Position numbers and translations under genes: made by a program
Origin: Clostridiales bacterium
Lineage (GTDB): Bacteria > Bacillota > Clostridia > Christensenellales > SZUA-584
Length of the DNA: 37,553 nt
Reading direction: 5' to 3'
Assembly (NCBI GenBank): GCA_029265435.1
Contig: JAJUJH010000008.1
Span: 1-37,553 of the forward strand
Shown here: one piece after another, positions 6,670-37,553 of the stretch
How the letters are laid out: every line of letters starts with the position of its first letter
Numbering within the stretch: position 1 is the first letter of the stretch
Notes under the pieces: generated by a model
Seen by the model: only the letters and a program-made list of their open reading frames with translations
Databases searched by the model: none
What the model was told of the DNA's origin: nothing

Positions 6670-6720
6670 ACGTGATTTTTCTCATGAACGGTAACAATTA
6701 TTATAAGCCAAAAGCGAAGA

Positions 6721-6838
6721 TATCATTTGTGGCAAGACAGGCTTAGCCCGTGCATCCATACCTTGAGGTTTTATGCCGTTTCGAGCTTGCGAGGAACAAG
6801 CAAAGCCCTCGGAAAACCGAAGTTTTTTCGACAAGCTG
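6721..6838 (+). repeat. Dispersed intergenic repeat, copy A
   Basis: TATCATTTGTGGCAAGACAGGCTTAGCCCG...TTTCGAGCTTGCGAGGAACAAGCAAAGCC...CGACAAGCT aligns with copies at 8951 and 17471. Confidence 0.85.
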
Positions 6839-6869
6839 AAAGCCGCACATCCTGCAATATGCGGCTTTT
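6839..6869. terminator. Bidirectional terminator-like hairpin between convergent genes
   Basis: AAAGCCGCAcatcctgcaataTGCGGCTTTT. Confidence 0.7.
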
Positions 6870-6895
6870 CTGATATCATGTATCTTGATGAGAGT

Positions 6896-8440
6896 TCAGG
6901 CCGCTTTATCGGCCGTGGCTTGGTCGGCTGTAACCGCTTGTTCTTCCGCCGGCCCGCCTGCTCCGGTCTGTTCTCGGGCGGTCTGGCCGTCAGCGGCTTG
7001 ATCTGCCGCGCTTTGATCGGCGTTTTGATCTGCCGGGTTGCGGCCGGTCACATAGTCGGCAATGTAGGCTTCAAAGCCGTATGCCCTGATGAGCGCCGCG
7101 ATGGTATCCGGCGCGGCAATGCCGTCGGCGTCAAGCCCGTTGGTCTCCTGAAACAGCGTAAGCGCATTGCGGGTCCTCTTGTCGAAAAAGCCGTTTGCGT
7201 CCACATGAAAACCAATTTTGTTCAGCATCTGCTGAATCCGCCGCACGCGTTCCGACGGGGTGCAGCCATACTGGGCATACCTGTACGTCCGTTCATAAAG
7301 CTTGGGCGGTATACCCTCTCCGGTGTAACGGCCGCTGTACGGATACATATAAAAGCAATGGCCTTTGATCTTGGTGACATACTCGTTCCGGCCCCAGTCC
7401 TTGCCCGCTTTGGAATGAGATTTGAAAAAATACACATCCTGCGGAAGCACCCAATACTCATCCTTGAGCACGGCAAGCGCGGCGCGTTTGGCGGCCGTTG
7501 TCGGGCGGGTATACTTTGAATAGGCGAACTGGCCCGATTTCACGACGCTCGCAATCGTATCGCCGAACTGGTCGGTGTTGAGCACACGGTTCATGACCAC
7601 GTTTCCGACGGCTACCATGCCTTCAAAAGTCTCGCCGCGCGCTTCGCTCGTAATCACCTGCGCGAGCAGATATACCTCGTCGTCCGTATACTCATAGGTA
7701 TTTGTCGAATAGCCCGCATCGTCGAAATATTGGCCGGATTCATCCACAAAGAACGAGACCAATTCGTCCGTCGTTGCGGGCGCGGGCTCTAAGTTCCGCG
7801 TTTGCTCCTGCAAAGGCTCAGGCGTCGCCGTGGCGGCATCAATGGTTTCCACCGCCGACTCTGCGATGTGATAACCGAGCATCAAAGTGGTCACGTCGGG
7901 CACATCGGGAACCTGTGCCTGCTTTTGTTTGACGAATACGGACGGATCGATATTAATTTGATCCAAACGCGGGTTATCACCTATAACGACGGCCGGTATT
8001 TTTTCCGTGGCGGCCTTTCCTCCTTCCGGCATCACGAAGGTCAGCAGCCCTGCCACAAGCGCGAGACACGCCGCGATATAAACGGCGACGCGCCTGTACC
8101 GCCGTCTCTTTGGCTTGATTGTAAGGGGGGCTTCATGGACATCGCCGTCCGCTTTGTCATGCTTGCCGTCCTTTTTCCCAACTGTCAGCTTAAAATTGCC
8201 CTTGATTGTTTGGCGCCGATGCCTCCTTTCAATGATGCGTACTACCTCATCGGCTGTATAGCTTTTTCTTTTGTCGTATACCGCGGGGGCGTCCTCCAGA
8301 TACATGATATCCGGTTCATCCGTTTTGGGCGGCGTGCCCTTGCAATGCATTGCCGCCCGGCCGGTTTTGACCGGCATGGCTTTTCCGGTTTTGAACCGAA
8401 AAAACCTGCCGACAGCACGAATGCCCGTACAAAGATTCAT
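6896..8440 (-). CDS. SleB-type cell wall hydrolase (Hydrolase_2) with N-terminal TM, peptidoglycan-binding-like domain and Ala/Gln/Asp-rich tail
   Basis: 'EVYLLAQVITSEARGETFEGMVAVGNVVMNRVLN' typical of SleB/CwlJ; 'CTPSERVRRIQQMLNKIGFHVDANGFFDKRTRNALTLFQ' PG_binding_1-like. Confidence 0.9.
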   Translation of the reverse strand: MNLCTGIRAVGRFFRFKTGKAMPVKTGRAAMHCKGTPPKTDEPDIMYLEDAPAVYDKRKSYTADEVVRIIERRHRRQTIKGNFKLTVGKKDGKHDKADGDVHEAPLTIKPKRRRYRRVAVYIAACLALVAGLLTFVMPEGGKAATEKIPAVVIGDNPRLDQINIDPSVFVKQKQAQVPDVPDVTTLMLGYHIAESAVETIDAATATPEPLQEQTRNLEPAPATTDELVSFFVDESGQYFDDAGYSTNTYEYTDDEVYLLAQVITSEARGETFEGMVAVGNVVMNRVLNTDQFGDTIASVVKSGQFAYSKYTRPTTAAKRAALAVLKDEYWVLPQDVYFFKSHSKAGKDWGRNEYVTKIKGHCFYMYPYSGRYTGEGIPPKLYERTYRYAQYGCTPSERVRRIQQMLNKIGFHVDANGFFDKRTRNALTLFQETNGLDADGIAAPDTIAALIRAYGFEAYIADYVTGRNPADQNADQSAADQAADGQTAREQTGAGGPAEEQAVTADQATADKAA

Positions 8441-8484
8441 CTGTTCAATCTCCCTGTTATACTGTCTTTTTTCCCGTAAGTGCC

Positions 8485-8513
8485 ATCATAACCGGTACAT
8501 TACGGTTTGTCAA
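8485..8513 (-). promoter_or_regulatory. Sigma-A type promoter for the SleB-type gene
   Basis: Minus strand TTGACA-N17-TATGAT. Confidence 0.7.
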
Positions 8514-8701
8514 TCAATTTGTAATACTTTCGTAATATATATATGTTTTTTTCTCAAATATGATACAATTCGTTCATAATCAATGGCTTCTGTGCGGATT
8601 ATGCAATTGATTTCGTGAGAGAATCATAACAGCAACTTGTGGAGGTAAAACAAACTAATCAGGTCAAAATCGTTTTTTATCCAGCGGGAGATTCAAAACA
8701 G

Positions 8702-8732
8702 AAAAAGGCGGCCGAAATTGCCGCCCTTTTTC
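8702..8732 (-). terminator. Intrinsic terminator (potentially bidirectional)
   Basis: AAAAAGGCGGCcgaaattGCCGCCcTTTTT, just after the stop of the small ORF at 8740. Confidence 0.75.
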
Positions 8733-8739
8733 CCAGATA

Positions 8740-8883
8740 TCAACCGTCATTTGGATCGTTCTCTTCGCCGTAATGCACACGCAGTTCTTCTCGCAGTCCC
8801 ACCTGTCGCAGTGTTTCGTCGTTTGCATTCGTTCGCGATGCTCTCCGATCCAGCTTTCTTCTGGGATCCTTCTTATTCTTCAT
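8740..8883 (-). CDS. Hypothetical small basic protein (47 aa), not in the ORF track
   Basis: MKNKKDPRRKLDRRASRTNANDETLRQVGLREELRVHYGEENDPNDG; followed directly by a terminator. Confidence 0.5.
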   Translation of the reverse strand: MKNKKDPRRKLDRRASRTNANDETLRQVGLREELRVHYGEENDPNDG

Positions 8884-8950
8884 TTTCTGCCCTGCCTTTA
8901 TCGTTTATTATGTGCATCAGTTTGCTTTTCATTCGTCAGACATTAAGCAA

Positions 8951-9080
8951 ATATGTTTGTGGGCAAGACGGGATTTGCCTGCGCAGTCCACACCTTGCGG
9001 TTTTGCGCCGTTTTAAGCTTGCAAGGAATAAGCCAAACCGGGAAACTGGCGGAAAACCGAAGGTTTTTCGATAAGCTGTA
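8951..9080 (+). repeat. Dispersed intergenic repeat, copy B
   Basis: TTTGTGGGCAAGACGGGATTTGCCTGCGCAGTCCACACCTTGCGGTTTTGCGCCGTTTTAAGCTTGCAAGGAATAAGCCAAACC...TTCGATAAGCT. Confidence 0.85.
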
Positions 9081-9304
9081 ACAAATATGAAAGTATGATT
9101 TATTTATCCTTGTTTTTTTGCGGTCTTAGTCTGCTTCACCGTACAGGCATACATACATAATTTATTATCCAAAAGTATATTTTTTTGTTACACCATGTGA
9201 TATTATGTTTAGTAATATATGAAACATAATCATAATATTCGTTTTGTTTCGTTATATATCAAGAATTGAATCCGTTGATTGTTTTACGAAGGATGCGAGC
9301 AGAT

Positions 9305-11014
9305 ATGCCACTATTTCAAAAAAAACGCAAAATACCCATCGCTATAATCTCCGCCTTTGTGATCGTGTTTATCGCCGGCGCCATTGCGGCTCTTGCCGAT
9401 AATGAGCCGGTTTCCGATAATCATCTAAAAGACGGGCTTATCAGCCTCGGTGCGGATTCGAACGGCGACGGTTTGATCTCGGCGGCGGAAATAGCCGCGT
9501 TGTCCGGCTCTGTCGATCTTTCGGGCAGAGATATTTCCGATATCGGCGGGCTTGAAGCTTTAACGGGCGCGGTCTCACTCGATTTGCACAATAACAGCAT
9601 CCGCGATATTCAGCCTCTCGTCAACCTGATCGAAACAACGCCACATTCTCTGACCACCGTCGATATTTCCGGCAACTATCTTACCGGCGACGACGAACCG
9701 GCAATCGCGGCGATCGAAGCGTCCGGATGCACAGTTATCAATACTTCTCAAAAGGCAAGCCAGGAGAACTCAGGGGACAACGATTCCGGCATTTCCGAAG
9801 ATCCAGCCGTTTCTGAAGGCTCGTCGGATATTCTTTCATCTTCGGCTTTCACAGACGATTTCGCCCAAAGCTCAAACAATGCCGAGTTTGGGGCCGATCT
9901 TGCGGTCAACAGCGCCCTGCCCGTCAAACCCGTAAGCGGTATTTCGCTAAGCGTCAAGGCAAAATCGATGGCAATCGGGGATTCTTTTGATTTGTCGGCG
10001 GATATTACGCCGGCCGACGCCACTGATACCGGTATCGTATGGGCCTCCAGCGATACAAACGTCGCAACGGTCTCAAACGGCGCCGTAAAAGGCATATCAA
10101 GCGGCACTGCAACGATCACCGCCGCATCGAAGGAAAACGCTCAGGTTCTTGATTCCTGTATCGTGACGGTCAAATCGCCGGTTATGGAATCGGTCGTCTA
10201 CCCCATCGACAGAACAAACGGCATAATCAAAGGCGTTTTATCATTGACCATGATAGAGCAGTTTATAAGCAATATCCGAAGCGACGCGGCGGATCTTGCC
10301 GTATATGATTCGGCCGGCAATATCAGCGTCCAAACGGCCGTGAAAACCGGAATGACCGTAAAGCTCAGCGTAGACGGCACGGAACGCGATTCTCTCAAAG
10401 TCGCCGTGTGCGGAGACGGCAACGGCGACGGGCTTGTGACCGTCGCGGATTATACGCTGGCGCGTCTGAACATTTTGGGGCTGAAAGGCCTTGATGAACT
10501 GGCAAAGGCCGCCTGCGACGTCAACGGAGACGGCAGCGTGTCCGTATCGGATTACACCTCGATGCGTCTGAGTATTTTGGGGCTAAAAGCGCTCAGCAGC
10601 CCCTTGCCGGAGTTGCCGGAGGTAACAGACCCGCGCATCAGAGCTTTTCTTGATGTGGCGCTCATGCAGAGAGGCAAGCCTTACGTTTGGAGCGCCGAAG
10701 GTCCGGATTCTTTCGATTGCTCGGGCTTTATCTATTATTGTTTGAATAAAGCCGGATACAGCGTCAGCCGCACAACGGCGAACAATTACAGCAAAAACGA
10801 GTCGTGGGCCTATATACCCAGGGATCAGCTTCAGCCGGGCGATCTTATGTTTTATGTGTCCGACAGCAATCCTGATACGATTGGCCATGTGGGCATATAT
10901 CTTGGCAACGGCTATCATATCCATGCGTCTTCCACATACGGCTGTGTCGTCATCTGCCGCATAGAGGGCTGGTATGATAAAATGCTGAGCCACGGACGCC
11001 GTGTGTTTAATTGA
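9305..11014 (+). CDS. NlpC/P60 cysteine peptidase with N-terminal TM, EF-hand/LRR-like segment, Big_2-like domain and dockerin-like duplicated calcium loops
   Basis: 'DSFDCSGFIYYCLNKAG...DTIGHVGIYLGNGYHIHASS' NlpC/P60; 'GDGNGDGLVTVADYTLARLNILGLK' and 'CDVNGDGSVSVSDYTSMRLSILGLK' dockerin-I-like; start uncertain (9266, 9293 or 9305). Confidence 0.88.
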   Translation: MPLFQKKRKIPIAIISAFVIVFIAGAIAALADNEPVSDNHLKDGLISLGADSNGDGLISAAEIAALSGSVDLSGRDISDIGGLEALTGAVSLDLHNNSIRDIQPLVNLIETTPHSLTTVDISGNYLTGDDEPAIAAIEASGCTVINTSQKASQENSGDNDSGISEDPAVSEGSSDILSSSAFTDDFAQSSNNAEFGADLAVNSALPVKPVSGISLSVKAKSMAIGDSFDLSADITPADATDTGIVWASSDTNVATVSNGAVKGISSGTATITAASKENAQVLDSCIVTVKSPVMESVVYPIDRTNGIIKGVLSLTMIEQFISNIRSDAADLAVYDSAGNISVQTAVKTGMTVKLSVDGTERDSLKVAVCGDGNGDGLVTVADYTLARLNILGLKGLDELAKAACDVNGDGSVSVSDYTSMRLSILGLKALSSPLPELPEVTDPRIRAFLDVALMQRGKPYVWSAEGPDSFDCSGFIYYCLNKAGYSVSRTTANNYSKNESWAYIPRDQLQPGDLMFYVSDSNPDTIGHVGIYLGNGYHIHASSTYGCVVICRIEGWYDKMLSHGRRVFN

Positions 11015-11109
11015 ATATCGGAACCTATAACAGCGGCGAATATGATGCCGGCGTTATTTTACATTCTTATCGGTTCGTCCGCTTCAGATATTTAACGTGT
11101 CGTTTTTTA

Positions 11110-11138
11110 TTGACAGTGCGATGTGTTTCTCTTATAAT
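11110..11138 (+). promoter_or_regulatory. Consensus sigma-A promoter for tRNA-Ser
   Basis: TTGACA-N17-TATAAT. Confidence 0.9.
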
Positions 11139-11158
11139 GTAGGAGTTTCCGTTGGTTT

Positions 11159-11252
11159 GGAGAAGTACCCAAGTACGGCTGAAGGGGCTCCCCTGCTAAG
11201 GGAGTAGACCGGGGTAACCGGTGCGCGGGTTCAAATCCCGCCTTCTCCGCCA
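11159..11252 (+). tRNA. tRNA-Ser (anticodon GCT), encoded CCA
   Basis: Acceptor GGAGAAG/CTTCTCC, anticodon stem CTCCC-CTGCTAA-GGGAG, long variable arm, T-arm GCGGGTTCAAATCCCGC, terminal GCCA. Confidence 0.95.
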
Positions 11253-11297
11253 AAACCCTCAAGCCCTGCATAAATGTTCGGGTTTGAGGGTTTTTTA
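11253..11297 (+). terminator. Intrinsic terminator of tRNA-Ser
   Basis: AAACCCTCAAgCCC...GGGtTTGAGGGTTTTTTATTT. Confidence 0.85.
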
Positions 11298-11367
11298 TTT
11301 ATCGCCTTCTTGGCTCCTTCGCGCAGAATAAGCTTATCATGAACCAATATCAATCATTTTACACCCG

Positions 11368-11409
11368 ATATGTCAATAAGCCTCGGATGAACCGCGGGTA
11401 TTGACATAT
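11368..11409. repeat. Long inverted repeat in the tRNA-Ser/TetR intergenic region
   Basis: ATATGTCAATA (11368-11378) and TATTGACATAT (11399-11409), perfect 11-bp arms; inner CCtCGG/CCGcGG. Confidence 0.7.
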
Positions 11410-11560
11410 TGTTGTGATTTTGCATCGCAGATTTTGTTTCCGTATACCAAATAACTCTCAAAACTATGGCAACCCGTCTTTTGCCGTTGAAATTCAATGG
11501 CTGTGCATCACGATTCCAAAAAACTGCAGAAATTATTTATACATGTTAATAATTTTGTGA

Positions 11561-11585
11561 TATAATAATTAAGTGACCGCGGTCA
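11561..11585 (+). promoter_or_regulatory. TATAAT -10 element followed by the 12-bp palindrome TGACCGCGGTCA (putative TetR operator)
   Basis: TATAAT 11561-11566; TGACCGCGGTCA 11574-11585, about 45 bp before the TetR start. Confidence 0.65.
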
Positions 11586-11629
11586 TTAAATTTATCAATA
11601 ATAATTGCTAAGGATTTGGTGAAAAATAT

Positions 11630-12268
11630 ATGACGTATAACGGAGAAAAAAGAAAAATCAAGGCTCAATATACGAAGCAAAAAATCTACGAAAGCGCGAA
11701 GGAATTGTTCGCCTCCGAGCATTATAACGATATCAGTGTGGACTCGATTGTAAAAAAGGCGGGCGTTTCCAAGGGCTCTTTTTACGTTCATTATGCTTCA
11801 AAGGAGGCCCTTGTTAATTTCCTCATTGAAGATTATGTGGCGAAAATAGATACGGACTATATCAACTTCATTCACACCTTTCCAAAAGAGACCCCGACGG
11901 AAGAGTTGTTTCTTTCGTTGATTGCAAAAATCACCGATTTATTGATGGATATTGGCTTCGATAAAATACAAGCCTTATATCAGGGCCAAATCACAAAAAA
12001 TCTGGATACCGAAACTGTCACAAGCCATAACAGAGAAATTTATAAAATGTTCAGCCGCTTACTGGAACGCGGAATCGAACGGGGAGAATTCAAAACAGAT
12101 ATGCCGCTCAATATTCTCACCAAGCACTTGATGATGGCGATGCGGGGAATTACCTATGAATGGTGTATTCGTTACCCGAACTTTGATTATAAAACGGAAG
12201 CTCTAACGCATTTCAGGCTGTTGCTCAAGGGGCTGCGTGAGAGAAATACAATTCATGAATTCAAATAA
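11630..12268 (+). CDS. TetR/AcrR-family transcriptional regulator
   Basis: 'IYESAKELFASEHYNDISVDSIVKKAGVSKGSFYVHYASKEALVNFLI' TetR_N helix-turn-helix. Confidence 0.93.
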   Translation: MTYNGEKRKIKAQYTKQKIYESAKELFASEHYNDISVDSIVKKAGVSKGSFYVHYASKEALVNFLIEDYVAKIDTDYINFIHTFPKETPTEELFLSLIAKITDLLMDIGFDKIQALYQGQITKNLDTETVTSHNREIYKMFSRLLERGIERGEFKTDMPLNILTKHLMMAMRGITYEWCIRYPNFDYKTEALTHFRLLLKGLRERNTIHEFK

Positions 12269-12322
12269 CGGCTTCTATATGACCGATAGTTTATTGATGG
12301 TATTCGAAGGAGAAAGGGGAAA

Positions 12323-15300
12323 ATGAGAAAAAAACACTTGGCGTTGATTTTTTGCGCAGGACTGATATTGAGTTTTATTCCGCAGGCTGTGAAGGCCGGA
12401 GAGGACTATACCTATATCGACCAGGATGGAACAGCAAAAACAACAGCGGGATTAACCGTCACCCCCATCACGGCAGACACCGACGCATTGACCACCGGCT
12501 GGTATGTGGTAGACAGTAACGTGACTCGGTCTTCCACTATTACAGTATCCGGAGACGTTAATCTCATCCTCATGGACGGTTTTACGCTGACGGTCACAGG
12601 CAGCGCCGATAGCGCGGGAATCAATGTATTACAGGGAAACGCCCTGACCATTTACGGGCAAGCGGCCGGAACAGGTACGATTGTTGCACAAGGCGGGCAA
12701 TACGGAGCGGGCATCGGCGGCGAATACTATTCATACACCGGTACGATCAACATATTTGGCGGAACAATCAATGCGACGGGCGGAGAGGACGCGGCTGGCA
12801 TCGGCGGCGGCAAAGGCATTATGGGAGGAAGCCGTTGCAGCGGCGGGAATATCAATATTGCCGGCGGAAATGTGACGGCAAACGGCAACAGATATGGCGC
12901 GGGCATCGGCGGCGGATATCAGGGAGAAGGCGGAACAATCACCATATCCGGCGGTACGGTTCATGCGACAAGCGGAAACAGCAGCAGCGCTGGCGCAGCG
13001 GGTATCGGCGGCGGAGTGGGCAAACCTGGCGGAAAAACCACCATTTCTGGCGGAATCGTGGTCGCCCGAAGTCTATATTCCGGTGCAGGCATTGGAGGCG
13101 GAGTTAACGGTACAGGAGGCGTTATAGAGATTTCGGGAGGAGAGATTACGGCGAGCAGCCATTATCGCGGAGCCGGAATTGGCGGCGGTGATATGAAAGA
13201 CGGCGGCTCGATAATCATCCGCGGCGGTACCATCAATGCGGCTTCTGAATACGGCGGAGCCGGAATCGGCGGCGGCTGCCTTGCAACCGGCGGTACAATC
13301 AATATTCAAGGCGGAGATGTCACGGCTAATGGCGGCAGCTGGGGTGCCGGAATCGGCGGCGGAAGCCAATACGATGGCGGTAATATTACCATTTCTGGCG
13401 GAAATGTGAAAGCATATGCGGGAGACTATAATACCGGCGATTATTCCGGAAGTGCAGGCATCGGTGCGGGCGGCAAAAATACCAGCGATACGCATACCGG
13501 CGGCAATATTAAGATATTAGGAGGCAATGTGACCGCAGGAGGCTCCTACAGCAGCCTTGATATAGGACGGGGACGCGGCGGTGTGAATGGAACGCTGCTG
13601 ATAGACGGCGCGGCACAAGTCACTTTGCTTGCCAATGGCATTGACTCTTCGGCTACGACGTTTGGCACATGTATCCTGCAAGGGCCGGGCGCCGGTTCGC
13701 TGCTGGGGGCATATGAAGGAACGAAGATAGACGGGGTGCTGATCGATATGGGGAATCCTTCGCTTGCGAGCGGAACGGGCTATACTGTCAGCGGCAATAC
13801 TGTCACACTTGCAGGAAGCGGCAATTCATATGTTCTTTTTGGCAGCACAACCGTGCGGAACGTCGTCGTGTCGTCAGGCGCAAATGCAAATGTCACATTG
13901 TTTGCAGCAAGTATTCAACCTGTATCCGAGTCTGCGTTTAATATGACGGGCGCAACGGTCAACATGAGGCTCGTAAAATCCAGTACGCTTACCGGCGCCG
14001 ACAATTCCGCGGGCATTCAAGCTCCCGCGGGTTCAGCACTGACCATAAGCGGCAGCGCAACATCCACGCTGACCTCCCAAGGCGGCGCAAATGCCGCGGG
14101 TATCGGCGGCGGCAATAACAGTTCCGGCGGCGTTATCACCATCAAAAGCAGCGTAACAGTGGATGCACGGGGCGGTAATGGCGGCGCGGGTATCGGCGGA
14201 GGAAGGGGCGGAGCCGGCGGCACTATTCTGGCAGACGGTGCTCAGACGACCGTATCGACAACCGGCGGCGGCGACGGATATGATATCGGCTCCGGCTCCG
14301 GCAGTTCTGCAGGCGGCAGCCTTTCCATTACCAACAATGCCACCGTTCTGATGAACAAGAACGGCACAAACGCAAACGCCAGCATTTCCACAGGCACTGT
14401 CGGTGGCAGCGGGGCCGGCCTGTTGGCTGGCACCTATTTGGATTCTCAGAAGCTGCTCTCAATCAGCAGCTTCACGGCATCACCCGAATCCGAAGCCAAA
14501 GCCTATCAAAACGTGACGCTGACAGCCAATGTGACCGGGCTTTCATACACTGAACCGCAAGGCCAAATCGTTTTCTTTGACGGAGGAACAGAAATCGGGC
14601 GGTCGTCACTCACACGTGTATCGGAAAAGAGCGAAAATGCAACGTCTGAAATTGTCTGGCTGAGTCGCGGAGGGACCCACGCGTTTACGGCACAGTATAT
14701 TCAAAATGAAACGGCGGACAGCTATTATACGACTGGCGTTGGACAGATTGCAGATTACACAGTCGCAAGAACCGAACAGGCCATGCTTTTCGTAAGCGGT
14801 ATACCCGGTACTGTCACCTACGGGGACCATCCGTTCAGTCTTTCAGTCATTGGCGGCAGCGGCACCGGCGGCTTGAGCTATGAGGTGACATCGGGCGGTG
14901 CGGTATCAATCAGTCCAAGCGGCTCCGTAACGGTGCTCAAGGCGGGAACTGCTGAGATCACTGTGACCAAGGCGGGAGATACCGATTATCTGCCCGTTTC
15001 TGCGGTTGTGCCAATCACTGTGAACAAGGCGGTCCCTCCCCCGGTAATATTCCCTTCCGCCGGAGCAATCATATATGAGCAGAAGCTGTCTGATTCGCCC
15101 TTAACGGGCGGGAGCGGTAATGGCAGCTTTGCTTGGGAGGACCCGGATATCGTACCCTTGGTCCATAACAGCGGCTACACGGTTGTCTTTACACCCGCCG
15201 ATACGGACAATTATGACTATACGGGCATCACGCTGAGCCAAACGGTAAACATCACTGTGAATAAGGCGGTGCCAAAAGTCACTTTCCCGTCCGCCGGTCA

Positions 15301-17257
15301 AATCACTTATGAGCAGCCGCTGTCTGCTTCCGCGTTAACGGGCGGCAGCGGTAACGGCAGCTTTTCGTGGGAAGACCCGGACATCATACCCACCGTTGTC
15401 AACAGCGGATATCGCGTCATATTTACGCCTGATGATACGGACAACTATCAAACGGTAACCGATATCGTACCGATATCCGTGCTCAAAGCCGAACAGGCAG
15501 ATCTGGTTATTGATGGTATTCCGGATCCAGTCGCTTACGGTGCTTCGCCCTTTGATCTTATTGTCAGCGGCGGCAACGGCACCGGCGGCTTGAGCTATGA
15601 AACGATAGAAGGCAACGCAATTTCTGTGGATACAAAAGGCACCGTCACGATCCAAAGAGCGGGTGAAGCAACCGTTAAGATCACAAAAGCATCGGACAGC
15701 AACTATAATGCGGTATATAAAACGGTTAAAATAACGGTCAATAAAGCTGTTCCTTATGCTGTATTTCCATCTGCCGGGCAGATCACATACGGCCAGGCAC
15801 TTTCTGCCTCCATTCTGACCGGCGGAAGCGGAGACGGCAGCTTTGAATGGGAGAACCCGGAAACGATCCCCACTGTCATAAATAACGGCTTTAATGTGGT
15901 GTTCACACCATTTGATACCGATAATTACCTGCCGATCAAGCAGGCTGTGACGCTGACTGTGGATAAGGCCGATCAAGCACCGCTGTCGGTAAGCGGCATT
16001 CCCGACACGCTGACTTTTGGCGATAAGCCTTTCCGGCCGACCGTCAGCGGCGGAAGCGGCACCGGTTCGCTTGGCTTTGCAGTTGTTACAGGCAACGCGA
16101 TAACCGTTGATGCTTCCGGCAAGATAACGATCGCCCATGCCGGAACCGCGGCCGTTAAAATCACCAATTTTGGAGACGATAATTATCTTCCCGTATCCCG
16201 CACATTTTTGCTGACTGTGAACAAGGCAAAGCAGTCAGCCGCTTTGACATTTTCTATGCCTGATACCATCGCCGTTGGTGATGCGCCTTTCACTATTGTG
16301 GGAAGCGGAGGTAACGGCAGCGGCACGTTTGGCTTTTCCGTGGCTTCAGGCAACAGCATCTATGTAACCGAAACGGGAACCGTCACCGTTCTGAGTGCGG
16401 GGGAAGCCGTCATCACCGCTGTAAAAGCCGGCGACGGAGATTATCTGAGCCGGGAGGAAACGATACGCCTCCGTGTCGATAAAGGGACTCAAAACGCTTT
16501 GATCATATCCGGCATCCCACAGACAATCATTGCGGGACAAGCGCCGTTTAATCTGAATGTTTATGGAGGGAGCGGAACAGGTGAGCTCAGCTATGCGGTT
16601 GCCTCGGGAAAAGCCGTCAATGTGGATGCCAACGGACTTGTCACCATACTTAAGGCGGGAACTGCCGTGTTAAAGGTGACCAAAGCAGCAGATGCTAACT
16701 ACAACGACGCCACAGCAACGGTCGAAATAAATGTGAAGCGAGCTCTGCCAACAAAGGATAGTATGCCGACATCATCATCGTCCCCAGCCCCATCGTCAGC
16801 GCCGTCCTCGACTGTCACACCCGGCCCATCGCCCGATCATACATTTGCCGCGCCAACAGAATCACCCGCGGATGTGACGCTAAAGCCTCTTGCTATACAA
16901 TCCGACGAGCCGGGGATGTTGATCGTCACAATCAGCACCGATGATTTACCCGAAGGCACAACGGCCATTCGGCTCCAGTCGGGACAAATCATACAAATAG
17001 ACACAACCAAAGAAACATTTGAGCTGGAACTCAGCCAAAAAGACATTGCTGATACCGGTGAGTTTGAGGTCGTTGCGCTGAACAGCGAAAACATACCGTT
17101 GAGCAAATGGCGAATCGATCTGACAAACGAAACTTCCACGCAAAGCACACTTGAAAGCAGGCCAAGCCTGCCCTCAATATGGTTCTGGGCGGCAGGCGTT
17201 CCGGTTATTGGTGCTGCAATCGCAGCGTCTGTCATATGGCATAGGAAAAGGAAGTGA
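12323..17257 (+). CDS. 1644-aa secreted/membrane-anchored surface protein: signal peptide, glycine-rich 'AGIGGG' repeats (carbohydrate-binding/beta-helix-like), multiple Ig-like repeats, Ser/Pro linker, C-terminal TM
   Basis: SD GGAGAAAGGGG; about 10 'GAGIGGG' units in two blocks; repeated 'GGSGTG.LSY...ITVNKA' and 'FPSAGQITYEQ.LSAS.LTGGSGNGSF.WE' modules; C-terminal TM followed by 'WHRKRK'. Confidence 0.88.
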   Translation: MRKKHLALIFCAGLILSFIPQAVKAGEDYTYIDQDGTAKTTAGLTVTPITADTDALTTGWYVVDSNVTRSSTITVSGDVNLILMDGFTLTVTGSADSAGINVLQGNALTIYGQAAGTGTIVAQGGQYGAGIGGEYYSYTGTINIFGGTINATGGEDAAGIGGGKGIMGGSRCSGGNINIAGGNVTANGNRYGAGIGGGYQGEGGTITISGGTVHATSGNSSSAGAAGIGGGVGKPGGKTTISGGIVVARSLYSGAGIGGGVNGTGGVIEISGGEITASSHYRGAGIGGGDMKDGGSIIIRGGTINAASEYGGAGIGGGCLATGGTINIQGGDVTANGGSWGAGIGGGSQYDGGNITISGGNVKAYAGDYNTGDYSGSAGIGAGGKNTSDTHTGGNIKILGGNVTAGGSYSSLDIGRGRGGVNGTLLIDGAAQVTLLANGIDSSATTFGTCILQGPGAGSLLGAYEGTKIDGVLIDMGNPSLASGTGYTVSGNTVTLAGSGNSYVLFGSTTVRNVVVSSGANANVTLFAASIQPVSESAFNMTGATVNMRLVKSSTLTGADNSAGIQAPAGSALTISGSATSTLTSQGGANAAGIGGGNNSSGGVITIKSSVTVDARGGNGGAGIGGGRGGAGGTILADGAQTTVSTTGGGDGYDIGSGSGSSAGGSLSITNNATVLMNKNGTNANASISTGTVGGSGAGLLAGTYLDSQKLLSISSFTASPESEAKAYQNVTLTANVTGLSYTEPQGQIVFFDGGTEIGRSSLTRVSEKSENATSEIVWLSRGGTHAFTAQYIQNETADSYYTTGVGQIADYTVARTEQAMLFVSGIPGTVTYGDHPFSLSVIGGSGTGGLSYEVTSGGAVSISPSGSVTVLKAGTAEITVTKAGDTDYLPVSAVVPITVNKAVPPPVIFPSAGAIIYEQKLSDSPLTGGSGNGSFAWEDPDIVPLVHNSGYTVVFTPADTDNYDYTGITLSQTVNITVNKAVPKVTFPSAGQITYEQPLSASALTGGSGNGSFSWEDPDIIPTVVNSGYRVIFTPDDTDNYQTVTDIVPISVLKAEQADLVIDGIPDPVAYGASPFDLIVSGGNGTGGLSYETIEGNAISVDTKGTVTIQRAGEATVKITKASDSNYNAVYKTVKITVNKAVPYAVFPSAGQITYGQALSASILTGGSGDGSFEWENPETIPTVINNGFNVVFTPFDTDNYLPIKQAVTLTVDKADQAPLSVSGIPDTLTFGDKPFRPTVSGGSGTGSLGFAVVTGNAITVDASGKITIAHAGTAAVKITNFGDDNYLPVSRTFLLTVNKAKQSAALTFSMPDTIAVGDAPFTIVGSGGNGSGTFGFSVASGNSIYVTETGTVTVLSAGEAVITAVKAGDGDYLSREETIRLRVDKGTQNALIISGIPQTIIAGQAPFNLNVYGGSGTGELSYAVASGKAVNVDANGLVTILKAGTAVLKVTKAADANYNDATATVEINVKRALPTKDSMPTSSSSPAPSSAPSSTVTPGPSPDHTFAAPTESPADVTLKPLAIQSDEPGMLIVTISTDDLPEGTTAIRLQSGQIIQIDTTKETFELELSQKDIADTGEFEVVALNSENIPLSKWRIDLTNETSTQSTLESRPSLPSIWFWAAGVPVIGAAIAASVIWHRKRK
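12703..13490 (+). repeat. Intragenic glycine-rich repeat block encoding GAGIGGG units
   Basis: Recurring 'GGxITISGGxVxAxxxxxGAGIGGG' in translation, about 9 units; two more at about 14095-14220. Confidence 0.8.
14780..16740 (+). repeat. Intragenic Ig-like module repeats, two alternating module types
   Basis: Type 1 'SGIPDTLTFGDKPFRPTVSGGSGTGSLGFAV...'; type 2 'VIFPSAG.I.YEQ.LS.S.LTGGSGNGSF.WE.PD..P...NSGY.V.FTP.DTDNY'. Confidence 0.8.
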
Positions 17258-17353
17258 TCGGTCCGTGTTTTCTATCAGCGGCTTGCGTGCATCGGCCAAC
17301 TCCTTTTTCATTTTTGAACGGTTAACCCGATTTCCGCTATGATGGAGGTTCTT

Positions 17354-17392
17354 CTTGACAATCGCCAAAAGCTCGTTTTGGCGATTGTCAAG
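17354..17392. repeat. Perfect 17-bp inverted repeat with 5-nt loop
   Basis: CTTGACAATCGCCAAAA-gctcg-TTTTGGCGATTGTCAAG. Confidence 0.85.
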
Positions 17393-17425
17393 CTCAGCAT
17401 AGGTTTTTTCGGCAACATCACAAAA

Positions 17426-17447
17426 GGGCTGCCCGCAGGCAGCCCCC
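17426..17447. repeat. GGGCTGCCCGCAGGCAGCCC hairpin, copy 1, flanking repeat C
   Basis: 8-bp stem GGGCTGCC/GGCAGCCC, identical to 17586-17605. Confidence 0.8.
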
Positions 17448-17470
17448 ATACTGTCAATAAAGCTAAAAAA

Positions 17471-17584
17471 TATCATTTGTGGGCAAGACGGGCTTTGCCC
17501 GCGCAGCCCACACCTTGCGGTTTTGCGCCGTTTCGAGCTTGCGAGGAACAAGCAAAACCAGAAAACTGTCGAAACGACAAGCTA
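17471..17584 (+). repeat. Dispersed intergenic repeat, copy C
   Basis: TATCATTTGTGGGCAAGACGGGCTTTGCCCGCGCAGCCCACACCTTGCGGTTTTGCGCCGTTTCGAGCTTGCGAGGAACAAGCAAAACC...CGACAAGCT. Confidence 0.88.
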
Positions 17585-17585
17585 A

Positions 17586-17606
17586 GGGCTGCCCGCAGGC
17601 AGCCCC
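17586..17606. repeat. GGGCTGCCCGCAGGCAGCCCC hairpin, copy 2, flanking repeat C
   Basis: Identical to 17426-17446. Confidence 0.8.
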
Positions 17607-33123: not shown

Positions 33124-33804
33124 TCACCCGGTTTGGCGGCAGCGCACCAGCAGCCTGCCGTTTCCGCTTGCCTCACAGGTTAACAGCGACAGCTCCCGGC
33201 TGTATTGCGTATCGTCGAGAATACCGGTATCATCGGGTTTGATATGCTCTAATTTGTAAACCGCATAGGAATAAGTATTACCTTCCCGGCCGGTAATGGA
33301 TACCATATCACCGACGGTCAGTTTGTCCAGTCTGCCGAAGTGCGCCCCGTTCCGGTAGTTGTGGCCTGTGATGACCAGGTTGCCTTCGCCGCCCGGATCG
33401 GGCCCGGTATAATAGCATACAGAGGCTTTGAGCGCTTCTTTCGTCGGTTCCGACAAAATTGGCAGATGAAGGTCCAAGATGTCAATGTCCAGACGCGCAA
33501 TCACAGAATATCCCTTAAGTTCAACGGGGAGGTCGGGAACGGCCTCGTTAGCGGGCCGGGTATTCGTCTGCGCATCAGCCTTAGCAGTAGCGGCAGGCGG
33601 CTTGATACCGGCCGCTTCAAGCAATAATTCGGAGTTTTGAGCCGCCGTCTCGCCTTCGTTCCACTGAACAAGAAACAGGGTTACCCATGCTATGGCAAAC
33701 ACACCGCATAACGCGAATAAAACAATATGCAGTTTCGTATTCTTCAATACCTTTCTCGTAGCCGCCAGCCGGAACACCTCGCGGACAAATTTCCCCACTT
33801 TCAT
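33124..33804 (-). CDS. Sortase (class not assigned)
   Basis: N-terminal TM; 'GNLVITGHNYRNGAHFGRLDKLTVGD' (catalytic His), 'ELSLLTCEASGNGRLLVRCRQ' (catalytic Cys and Arg); ATG overlaps the upstream TGA by one base. Confidence 0.9.
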   Translation of the reverse strand: MKVGKFVREVFRLAATRKVLKNTKLHIVLFALCGVFAIAWVTLFLVQWNEGETAAQNSELLLEAAGIKPPAATAKADAQTNTRPANEAVPDLPVELKGYSVIARLDIDILDLHLPILSEPTKEALKASVCYYTGPDPGGEGNLVITGHNYRNGAHFGRLDKLTVGDMVSITGREGNTYSYAVYKLEHIKPDDTGILDDTQYSRELSLLTCEASGNGRLLVRCRQTG

Positions 33805-36800
33805 CAATGAGACTTCCTCTTTGCCCTTGTCATTACGGCAACGGCCGCGGCGCCGGACAATACCGCCAGCACCCCCAGCACCCACAGCGGCATGTTGTCT
33901 TGGCCGGTAATCGGCAGTTCCGCTGCAAGAATCGTGACGGCGATATCATGCGTCATGCCGTTTATCGTGTAGGTGACGGTCGTATACCCGGTTTTTATTG
34001 CTTTGAAGGTCATGGAGTTTCCGTTTGCCGTGGCCGTTAGATACTCCTTGTCATACTGCCAGGTGCCGCCCGAGGGGGATGGCGTCCACGTCACGCGCCC
34101 GCCTTCGTACATGGTATGGTTGTCCGGCAGGTCGCGGATGGGTTCGCTTTTTGCCAAAGCATATGGCGAAAGGCTGTTTACCGTAACGGTCAACGTACCG
34201 TTTGCCACAACGCCGGTATATCTTTCAATGCCGCTGCCGGTATTATGCAGCAGCGTAAGCGTTTGGCCGTTATACTGCGTTCCCACCGGGAAAGAAAGGG
34301 TCAAGGCACCCACATATGATTCGCCTAAGCTATCCCCAAACAGGGAAATCTCAAAGCAAAGAATGATCTCCTGGCCGTTGTTCAGGGCCGCTTCCAGTTC
34401 CTTGTAGGCGTCGCTGGCCGGGTCAAGCTTTGTAACCAGAAGTTGCGCGCCTTCAATAAGGCTGCCGCTGATGCTGATTCCGCTGCCGGGGTCTGTCAGG
34501 GTCTGCTGGGAATATGGCGGCGTACTGTCAGATACGGTGATCGTGAGAGTTTGGTCGGCTCCCGCGCTGAAATCAAAGGTAAGTATCGTTGTGCCAACCT
34601 CCTGCCGCCCAAGGTACTCTTTTTTGATAGTGATAATATTACCCAAAATGGTATAGTCCGTTCCCCTCGACAGGATAGATGTACCATTTTTAACTGACGA
34701 TAGTGAATGTCCGTTTAAAGTCATGGTAACGGATATATCCTGCATGTAATGTTTATCAAAGCTGGCGCTTGTTGGATCAATCATCGCATCGGGTTCAGCT
34801 TGCCCGATAATGGTGATAGCCGCCTCTCCATATACTCCGGACCCGTCATTGGCTGTTGCCCTTACCGTCACCGTGCCTTCTCCGGTGCCCGTCAGCAATC
34901 CGGTGGAAGGGTCAATGGCGGCTGTGCCTGATCCGGAATACACGCTCCAGGTCACGGTTTTATCTGTGGCGTCGGCGGGCAATACTTCTGCCAGCATTTG
35001 CAGGGTACCGCCATTCTCCACTGTTTTCGCGTCGCCTGCCCCTTTTACGGTGATGAATGTTACCAACACCGTTGCCGGCGGTTCCGCATCCGTCGTAACG
35101 GCCAATCCTGCGCTCTCGGCCGATGCATTGTGGGTAGCCGTTTCTTTGACCCTGGCGGTAAAGGTGTATTCGGTTTCCGGTGATAGACCCATAAATACGT
35201 TGCTGTCCTGCCATGCGCCTCCGTTTACCCTGAATTCATAGGCTGCATTGGCCTTTAGGGTGACGCTGTTATGCGTTTTGCCTGCCAGCGAAGGCGCTTC
35301 AGGGGCCGCCGGTCCCTCGGCTTTGTTCACAACAGCCGTCTGGGAACTTGTCAGACTGCCGACAGCATGAATCCCGTCTGCTGTCACCAAAACGGAAATC
35401 CGTGCGCCGATATCCGCTTCCGTCAGGGTATATGTGGAATTAGTTGCTCCGTCTATGTCTGTGCCGTTGCGCCTCCACTGATAGGTGGGCGCATCCCCAT
35501 CAGTGTCCGGATAGTAATGAAGAGGCGCGACAGATAAGGTTGAACCAAACTTGGCCTCCCCGTTAATGGTCACGCTCCCGTATAATTCCGGTACCGCCCA
35601 GATGGCATACAGGGTCAGGTCGTTTGATGGCATATACACTGTCTCGCCGGGGAGGTAGTTAGGCGCTGTCCCGTCAGGGCTCAGATTCCAATTCTTGAAT
35701 TTCTTGTATGTGCCTGCTGGCGGAGCAAAGGTATTGTCCGCCGCAATAAATGTCTCGCCTGCGGCCTTGTCGCCCTCTGTGGGAGCTGTTCCCGTACCTC
35801 CGTTTGCGTCATAGATAACGGCATATTTGGTGGCCGGGAATACGGCGGTCACCACTCCTGAATCAGCCGCATTGCTTACCGATGTGGCTCCGGCTACGGT
35901 AAAGAAGTTTTCAGCTACGCCTGTTAAGGTGTACCCGGCCTTTGGCGTCAGGGTTATGGTCGCCGTGTAAACCCTGCCGCCCCCGAACGGGTTGTCGGCC
36001 GGTGACCAGCTTACGGTTCCCGTATATTGGGCCGTTTCGGTTATCGCGGTGACGGGCGCCTCTCCCCTGGCAGGAGGGGTTACTCCCGGAATGGCGGCGA
36101 TATCGATTGCAGCTGCGGACATGTTCACTGTCACCGGGATGACCGCCTGCGTGTAAGCCGAGGCGATACCCGCAAACCGGGCGTAAATCACACAGCTCCC
36201 GTTCCCGGCAGGCGTTACCACACCCTGGCTGTCCACCGTGGCCACATTCGAATCGGAGCTGGCAAAAGCAAACAGCCCGAAATCCGTTGGCTCATAGGTG
36301 TTCCACCACGTATTGCCGTCGTAAGACCCCTCTTTTTTCACGTCAGCCGCCTGTATCCCCTGGGAATCACCGGCGCTTGTGAACGCAAGGCTGTTTCCCG
36401 TATAAGCATACCGATATTGGGGTGTAACTGTTTTTGTGGCCGCCGGGCAAGCGTCCAGTCTGTCTTTTTCAGGCCCGGAAAAGACGTTTATAAAGTTCCT
36501 GTCACACTTAAGAATTGTGAGCGTATCCGGCAGGTCCGGAAGACTTGTCAGCCTGTTTTCATCGCAGAATAGCCACTGAAGATTGGGAGGCAGTTCCGGC
36601 AATGCCTCCAGTTGATTATCATTGCATCCCAATGTACTTAAACCGCTTGGCAGCTGCGGGAGGCCGGTTAATTGATTGTAGCCGCATTCAACCGTAATGA
36701 CATTGGCCCCCAATGCGGGCAGCGCCGTCAGCCGGTTGCTTTCGCAGTACAGTGTGATTAAGGAAGCAGGCAAAGCCGGCAATTGGGTTAGCTGATTGTT

Positions 36801-37553
36801 TTTGCAGTCCAGTACCTGCAGGCCGTCAGGCAGGTCGGGCAGGCTGGTCAACCGGTTTTTATTGCAGACTAACTCTATAAGGGAAGCAGGCAAAGCCGGC
36901 AATTGGGTTAGCTGATTGTTATCGCAGTCCAGCATCCGCAGGCCGTCAGGCAGGTCGGGCAGGCTCGTCAACCGGTTTTTATAGCAGACTAAGACATTAA
37001 GGGAATCAGGCAAAGCCGGCAATTGGGTTAGCTGATTGTTATCGCAGTCCAGCATATTCAGGCCGTCAGGCAGGTCGGGCAGGCTGGTCAACTGGTTATT
37101 ATAGCAGTATAAAACAATAAGGGAATCAGGCAAAGCCGGTAAACTGGTCAATTGATTGGCTGTGCAATTCAGCTGAAGAATCCCCGTGCCCTGGAAATGC
37201 TCCAACCCCGCCAGGCTGGCTATGCTTTTGCTGGCGACGTAAAGGGTATTGCCTTTTTGGGGCATCCGTGCGATCAAATCCTGTTTTGTAAAGCTCCCCG
37301 GCGCACCGCTGTTGCCCAGCCACTCCCAGACCGCCTGCTTGAAGTTGGGATCGGTAAAGTCGCCGGAAATATCCAGGTTCTCCACGGAAACGGGGACTGT
37401 TAACTTAAGGTTCCCGGAACCGGACTGGGCGGTCAGGACTAGATCGTAGCCGCCCGCCGGGGTCGCCGGGACAGGCTGCAGCGTCACGGTGTTGGAAGCG
37501 ATGCTCGCCGCCAGCTCGCTAGAGGTGGCGGGGTCGATTGCAAAGGTGATGCT
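33804..37553 (-). CDS. LPXTG-anchored giant surface protein, 5' end outside window: short-period LRRs, Ig-like and InlB B-type modules, CBM_X2-like domain, LPITG sorting signal
   Basis: Frame open to base 37553; LRR 'LPDSLIVLYCYNNQLTSLPDLP' series; 'YAVIYDANGGTGTAP...LTLYAIW'; 'DPTSASFDKHYMQDISVTMTLNGHSLSSVKNGTSILSRGTDYTI'; C-terminus 'LPITGQDNMPLWVLGVLAVLSGAAAVAVMTRAKRKSH'. Confidence 0.93.
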   Translation of the reverse strand, partial: SITFAIDPATSSELAASIASNTVTLQPVPATPAGGYDLVLTAQSGSGNLKLTVPVSVENLDISGDFTDPNFKQAVWEWLGNSGAPGSFTKQDLIARMPQKGNTLYVASKSIASLAGLEHFQGTGILQLNCTANQLTSLPALPDSLIVLYCYNNQLTSLPDLPDGLNMLDCDNNQLTQLPALPDSLNVLVCYKNRLTSLPDLPDGLRMLDCDNNQLTQLPALPASLIELVCNKNRLTSLPDLPDGLQVLDCKNNQLTQLPALPASLITLYCESNRLTALPALGANVITVECGYNQLTGLPQLPSGLSTLGCNDNQLEALPELPPNLQWLFCDENRLTSLPDLPDTLTILKCDRNFINVFSGPEKDRLDACPAATKTVTPQYRYAYTGNSLAFTSAGDSQGIQAADVKKEGSYDGNTWWNTYEPTDFGLFAFASSDSNVATVDSQGVVTPAGNGSCVIYARFAGIASAYTQAVIPVTVNMSAAAIDIAAIPGVTPPARGEAPVTAITETAQYTGTVSWSPADNPFGGGRVYTATITLTPKAGYTLTGVAENFFTVAGATSVSNAADSGVVTAVFPATKYAVIYDANGGTGTAPTEGDKAAGETFIAADNTFAPPAGTYKKFKNWNLSPDGTAPNYLPGETVYMPSNDLTLYAIWAVPELYGSVTINGEAKFGSTLSVAPLHYYPDTDGDAPTYQWRRNGTDIDGATNSTYTLTEADIGARISVLVTADGIHAVGSLTSSQTAVVNKAEGPAAPEAPSLAGKTHNSVTLKANAAYEFRVNGGAWQDSNVFMGLSPETEYTFTARVKETATHNASAESAGLAVTTDAEPPATVLVTFITVKGAGDAKTVENGGTLQMLAEVLPADATDKTVTWSVYSGSGTAAIDPSTGLLTGTGEGTVTVRATANDGSGVYGEAAITIIGQAEPDAMIDPTSASFDKHYMQDISVTMTLNGHSLSSVKNGTSILSRGTDYTILGNIITIKKEYLGRQEVGTTILTFDFSAGADQTLTITVSDSTPPYSQQTLTDPGSGISISGSLIEGAQLLVTKLDPASDAYKELEAALNNGQEIILCFEISLFGDSLGESYVGALTLSFPVGTQYNGQTLTLLHNTGSGIERYTGVVANGTLTVTVNSLSPYALAKSEPIRDLPDNHTMYEGGRVTWTPSPSGGTWQYDKEYLTATANGNSMTFKAIKTGYTTVTYTINGMTHDIAVTILAAELPITGQDNMPLWVLGVLAVLSGAAAVAVMTRAKRKSH
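36781..37140 (-). repeat. Three tandem 120-bp units (each two 20-aa LRRs) in the LPITG protein gene
   Basis: Units at 36781-36900, 36901-37020 and 37021-37140 are nearly identical, e.g. 'aattgggttagctgattgtt.t.gcagtccag' recurs every 120 bp. Confidence 0.95.

Follow-up and report, generated by a model that had tools for sequence, protein, structure and literature searches.

A short repeat with IS1182-type ends lies between duplicated terminator stem-loops in a Clostridiales genome

Three copies of an intergenic repeat in the window

The stretch of DNA analyzed here (the window) is the 37,553-nucleotide contig C102 of a Clostridiales bacterium whose genome assembly comprises 2.59 Mb in 224 contigs. 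A profile search of the window confirmed the three same-orientation repeat copies of the first-pass annotation, at 17448-17574 (E 1e-43), 8945-9078 (3e-41) and 6712-6838 (2e-33), with no others significant. The coordinates proposed originally located these copies, called A, B and C from left to right, but missed about 15-30 bp on the left; full extents are given in Table 1. Two copies had been placed between convergent genes, which is true of A and C. Elsewhere, Rfam matches in the window are limited to a ribosomal protein L10 leader (RF00557; 23009-23140, minus strand) and a 91-base tRNA (11159-11249, plus strand), both ordinary, and no Rfam family matches the repeat at the gathering threshold. 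A large surface-protein-like ORF (33804-37487, minus strand) has leucine-rich-type repeats, and a repeat occurs within it four times at 120-base spacing (36642-37173).

Both hairpins described earlier within the repeat were found, namely H1 (TGTGGGC/GCCCACA around CGGGC/GCCCG) and H2 (GGTTTTGC/GCAAAACC). The inner H2 pairing GCTTG/CAAGC was replaced by GTTTC/GGAAC as the preferable one: the sister species (G001), which has GAGCGTAGCGAGG at this place, keeps GTTTC/GGAAC and does not keep GCTTG/CAAGC. Two features were absent from the earlier description: a third hairpin, H3 (TGTCGG-AAAACC / GGTTTT-TCGACA), and a 22-bp terminator hairpin found on both sides of copy C.

Table 1. Repeat copies and associated stem-loops in the window (extents of the copies are approximate).
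Feature	Position	Strand	Basis
Copy A; old, left end decayed	6696-6838	+	
Terminator stem-loop AAAGCCGCACATCCTGCAATATGCGGCTTTT, immediately to the right of copy A	6839-6869		sequence; orthologous terminator in G001
Copy B; left end partly deleted, no visible target duplication, upstream of divergent genes	8937-9078	+	
Terminator stem-loop AGGGCTGCCCGCAGGCAGCCCC, left copy of the duplication, with an A-run on its left	17425-17446		sequence; same layout in 55/70 genome copies
Copy C; 138 bp, ends CATACTGTCAATAAAGC ... CGACAAGCTA, 3' hairpin shortened	17447-17584	+	
H1 in copy C, TGTGGGC..CGGGC-TTT-GCCCG..GCCCACA	17478-17512	+	
H2 in copy C, GGTTTTGC..GTTTC..GGAAC..GCAAAACC	17519-17559	+	
H3 in copy C, shortened to TGTCG-AAA-CGACA; most copies have the full form TGTCGGAAAACC-GAA-GGTTTTTCGACA	17567-17579	+	
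Right copy of stem-loop AGGGCTGCCCGCAGGCAGCCCC, the target site duplication of copy C	17585-17606		sequence

A repeat family flanked by duplicated terminator stem-loops

The three copies belong to a family of elements about 150 bp long, with the consensus CAGACTGTCAATAAAGCTAAAAATATCATTTGTGGGCAAGACGGGCTTTGCCCGCGCAGCCCACACCTTGCGGTTTTGCGCCGTTTCGAGCTTGCGAGGAACAAGCAAAACCGGAAAACTGTCGGAAAACCGAAGGTTTTTCGACAAGCTG, true ends CAGACTGTCAATAAAGC...GGTTTTTCGACAAGCTG and no obvious coding capacity. A 31-base core, allowing up to 3 mismatches, matches 88 places in the 2.59-Mb genome, compared to none for the reversed core pattern, and end-pattern searches add about ten copies, giving a family total of some 90-100. 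Copies decay, A and B among them. Convincing matches were confined to one genus among the 61 genomes searched, with the second genome of this genus, that of sister species G001, carrying a diverged version of the element. Eleven contigs (C98, C78, C35, C4, C2, C155, C44, C213, C46, C64 and C7) end inside or beside element copies. Some copies lie in two pieces, on separate contigs that each break off within the element, and are recognizable because both pieces bear the identical flanking hairpin; such matching hairpins could be used to pair contigs broken at repeats (e.g. C46 with C182, and C213 with C30).

We read the flanks of 30 and then of 89 copies. Nearly everywhere the layout is the same: a stem-loop, CAG...element...CTG, and the same stem-loop again. 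The flanking stem-loop varies between loci and is identical, or nearly so, within one locus. Clear direct repeats (score of at least 14), mostly 19-31 bp long and mostly flush with CAG and CTG, were seen at the element ends in 55 of the 70 copies that have both ends and both flanks. When flanks were paired across different copies, 0 of 300 pairs reached this score, ruling out simple flanking homology between loci.

In essence, each direct repeat comprises one complete terminator stem-loop, the length of which varies. In 40 of the 55 cases, both repeat ends lie no more than 2 nt from where the predicted stem closes, compared to 7, 2 and 3 when the window tested was slid by 6, 10 and 15 nt, respectively. 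A-runs precede the left hairpin and/or T-runs follow the right one in 49/55 cases, while 25 nt further out the control counts were 9 (A-run) and 11 (T-run) of 55. The flanking stem-loops look like rho-independent terminators, often bidirectional. Left A-runs are commoner than right T-runs (37 vs. 25 of 55). By a crude ORF call, the neighboring genes are convergent at 29 loci, codirectional at 30 and divergent at 6; within codirectional pairs, the element lies opposite to the genes in 21 cases and on the same strand in 9.

Two kinds of exception were seen. At three non-palindromic sites (L023, L037 and L090), copies are flanked by flush repeats of only 4-6 bp (GTAT, ATCAT and GATCTC), which suggests that the same enzyme makes short duplications where a hairpin is absent. 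At another locus (L078:1444-1594, G000:C30), the two flanking hairpins are unrelated (AGACCGCAGATGTTCGCGGTCTT on the left vs. AGCCTCTCCTTTGTGAGGAAAGGCT on the right), as expected from recombination between two copies.

Sites without the element were sought by comparing orthologous intergenic regions at several loci in 774 kb of the G001 genome. At L077, downstream of an apparent ATP synthase epsilon gene, the element lies between two hairpins in the window's genome, and G001 has a single hairpin, GCGCTGCATCATTGCGGCGC, without it. Similarly, a lone hairpin without the element occupies each of the L045 and L046 sites in G001, where the sites of L004 and L102 also lack the element. Copies present in G001 are flanked in the same manner, one of them by AGCATCCTCAATTCGAAGATGCT at either end. 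The site of copy A in G001 retains a decayed right end of the element beside the orthologous terminator, indicating that this insertion is older than the species split and hence that the family has been active over a long time.

IS1182-type ends and the autonomous elements

The genome encodes one intact IS1182-family transposase, on contig C95 (447 bits with NCBIfam model NF033551, whose cut-off is 270). This IS is flanked on both sides by ACCGGATACTCTCATCCGGT, a terminator, and a relic of its right end adjoins another terminator on contig C8. Its ends, CAGGCTGCTGACAAAGC...GTTTGTCATTAACCTG, differ from those of the repeat at several positions; C95 is a 2.1-kb contig, and its bin has an estimated contamination of 4.4%.

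The C95 transposase was used to scan GTDB genomes, giving 79 loci, of which we examined 49, making 50 with C95 itself. Exact repeats flush with CAG...CTG are present at 38/50 and absent at the other 12. All 38 are complete stem-loops, 14-52 bp long, in elements from Clostridium, Thermobrachium, Caloramator, Cohnella, Paenibacillus and Clostridia MAGs. They are centered on the dyad of the palindrome, begin with A in 35 and end with T in 32, the first and last bases being complementary in 34. Many end a few bp inside a longer palindrome, so that the 'foot of the stem' is only an approximate description of their limits. The Thermobrachium celere locus (L203) has a 2357-bp element, larger than its relatives, between 22-bp stem-loop repeats (AAGCCACCCTAATGGGTGGCTA); its size perhaps reflects a nested insertion or a passenger.

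On a matrix built from IS1182 ends, the two ends of the repeat score 18.4 and 20.0, compared to 16-25 for the IS ends themselves, and among 1.3 million genomic 17-mers, a background that includes copies of the repeat, as few as 2 and 1 score this high. The right end of a Paenibacillus apiarius IS1182 element, read inwards (CAGCTTGTCGAGAAACC), differs from that of the repeat (CAGCTTGTCGAAAAACC) at 1 of 17 bases. Since both the end-matrix scores and the stem-loop duplications match, the repeat is, as judged from sequence, a bearer of IS1182-type ends that obeys the IS1182 target rule. We propose that it is a non-autonomous MITE that duplicates its stem-loop targets and is very probably moved in trans by a DDE transposase of the IS1182 family. 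The earlier suggestion of a 'REP/MITE-like' element is upheld in its second half by the IS1182-type terminal inverted repeats, target duplications, ~90-100 copies and empty sites. The first half was dropped: REP or RAYT-associated repeats are 20-40-bp palindromes lacking a target duplication, whereas this element is ~150 bp long and has target duplications. Retrotransposition and group II intron mobility are likewise disfavored, because the element shares its ends and its choice of target with a DDE IS family.

End-pattern and transposase searches of the window's own genome, an incomplete MAG fragmented at repeats, found no autonomous element with the exact ends of the MITE, and this partner may have been lost or be missing from the assembly. 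The extra end-pattern matches that we inspected proved to be a MITE copy, a truncated copy, an isolated end-like sequence or a chance match, rather than a partner. The isolated end (L153:2039, G000:C200:11038) is an IS1182-type end, CAGACTGTCGATAAACCC, directly 3' of a terminator hairpin and followed by GGGGGTTATCGACA, without the MITE core; it may be a relic, or may represent another MITE family of smaller size. IS5-type transposases on contigs C163 and C134, and on C106 and C3 of G001, are weak matches to the IS1182 HMM with no matching ends or duplications, and those of C163 and C106 fit IS5 models better. The MITE interior has no match to the C95 IS, which may not be its parent; many MITEs have only their ends in common with the partner IS (PMC3852290).

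The first-pass annotation had also raised selection on RNA or hairpin structure, and an RNA-level processing or termination element. The three interior hairpins are indeed conserved, with 96.3% of cells paired across 74 copies and 8 pairs (12 cells) changed on both sides; 0 of 500 shuffles reached either value, and sliding the partners by one column lowers pairing to about 53%. However, the copies are related and the RNAalifold covariation term is only 0.01, making selection on the interior hairpins plausible, but not established. These hairpins, together with the strong bias toward 3' gene ends seen in the neighbor counts, could point to a structured RNA or regulatory element (acting in processing, termination or 3'-end stability) kept at gene ends by selection, with its spread a secondary effect. 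We consider this very improbable: transposon ends, target duplications and empty sites account for both spread and location, the matches are restricted to a single genus, the copies decay, even within the window, and neither the covariation term nor Rfam lends support. The termination signals are those of the duplicated host terminators, not of the element, and a role in RNA processing or termination is not supported; the reading as an RNA gene was dropped, since the termini match a known IS/MITE end.

Long or variable duplications are also made by other families, IS1634 for instance giving long variable repeats. Those described here overlap in length the 24-29-bp class reported for the IS1202 group (PMC10045372), and the MITE might be moved by one of these families. 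However, their length follows the hairpin, the repeats are palindromic, and the ends start with CAG rather than TG; ends and target rule together fit IS1182. We rejected IS1202 on its ends and on the palindromic nature of the repeats, and would give the IS1202/IS1634 explanation as a whole almost no credence.

Stem-loop targets and the length of the duplication

The length of a target duplication normally equals the fixed stagger between two strand-joining events. A probable scheme for the IS1182-type MITE is as follows. The transposase would recognize ends of about 17 bp (CAG..TGTCRATAAA / TTTTTCGACA..CTG) and prefer as target not a sequence but a palindrome able to form a stem-loop, in this genome a rho-independent terminator between genes. 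The target may be extruded as a cruciform, with the element joined at or near the two 5' feet of the stem-loop, symmetrically about the dyad and usually 5' of an A whose partner is T. Gap repair would then copy the whole stem-loop, yielding a duplication as long as the hairpin (14-52 bp) rather than a fixed one. Following insertion into a bidirectional terminator, the left stem-loop copy would retain the A-tract and the right copy the T-tract, and transcripts arriving from either side should still encounter a hairpin with trailing U's in the distal copy. Termination would therefore probably survive, with the element becoming 3' untranslated RNA.

Because the duplications track the palindrome over 14-52 bp while non-palindromic sites give 4-6 bp, the simplest joint reading would be an enzyme with a short fixed stagger acting across the feet of an extruded hairpin. 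A 4-bp repeat is given for ISPse1, an IS1182-family member recovered with a trap plasmid (PMC3281130). The main rival has the same MITE moved by a transposase that binds palindromes as double-stranded sites, for example as a dimer on the dyad, with a flexible long stagger and no cruciform or single-stranded hairpin. A symmetric dimer could yield dyad-centered duplications that usually start with A (35/38) and end with T (32/38), and many duplications do end inside longer palindromes. However, such an enzyme would need a stagger that followed stem length anywhere between 14 and 52 bp, a difficult demand on a fixed transpososome, and the 4-6-bp repeats are what would be expected if hairpin extrusion brings the feet within a short fixed stagger. 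We view this dyad-binding alternative as possible, though doubtful. The fuller form of the extruded-hairpin reading, which we hold at about even chances, is that DNA secondary structure sets the duplication: the feet of the cruciform would be attacked with a short fixed stagger, duplicating a hairpin of 14-52 bp and sparing termination, in a manner general to the CAG-ended IS1182 group, for which terminators would be safe harbors and this MITE family a prolific user.

The closest known systems are the CAG-ended IS1182 elements (Clostridium carboxidivorans, Cohnella, Paenibacillus and contig C95), which are like the repeat in their end sequences, their CAG...CTG orientation and the duplication of a complete stem-loop of variable length. 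They encode a ~450-490-aa transposase in ~1.55-1.63 kb, whereas the repeat is ~150 bp, non-coding and has three interior hairpins. IS1272 and TnSha1, IS1182-family elements of staphylococci, also target a stem-loop, often a terminator, that is recognized by structure and not by sequence, and such structure-dependent targeting by IS1272 is already published (PMC5678879, PMC4923244). In the case of IS1272, however, the stem-loop was reported to be deleted or replaced with no target duplication (PMC5678879, PMC4923244), whereas here it is intact on both sides. Duplication of the whole stem-loop appears in PMC5678879 only as pathway b of a model, with joining at the 5' feet of the cruciform, and is contrasted there with IS1272 replacement; our data look like this pathway at genome scale. 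The same paper points to an earlier review that mentions, without giving detailed data, that certain IS1182 members have palindromic targets.

The MITEs RUP, SPRITE, BOX, QMITE and Chunjie (PMC10969869) resemble the repeat in being short, non-coding, intergenic, high-copy and trans-mobilized, with structured transcripts. In that review, which does not name IS1182, we found no IS1182-derived or terminator-duplicating MITE (PMC10969869). Our literature search found no account of stem-loop duplication by IS1182 or of an IS1182 MITE; ISfinder and the main reviews lay outside it, leaving priority uncertain.

The length of a target duplication is usually taken as a fixed property of the transposase; here, it tracks the hairpin at 55 MITE and 38 IS sites. 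These sites make up a large natural data set on structure-directed transposition, a mode put forward for IS1272 on the evidence of deletions. Both IS1182 insertions and MITEs can be recognized by paired hairpins around CAG/CTG ends. For the MITE family itself, landing on terminators and leaving one on each side suggests a route to about 100 copies with little harm.
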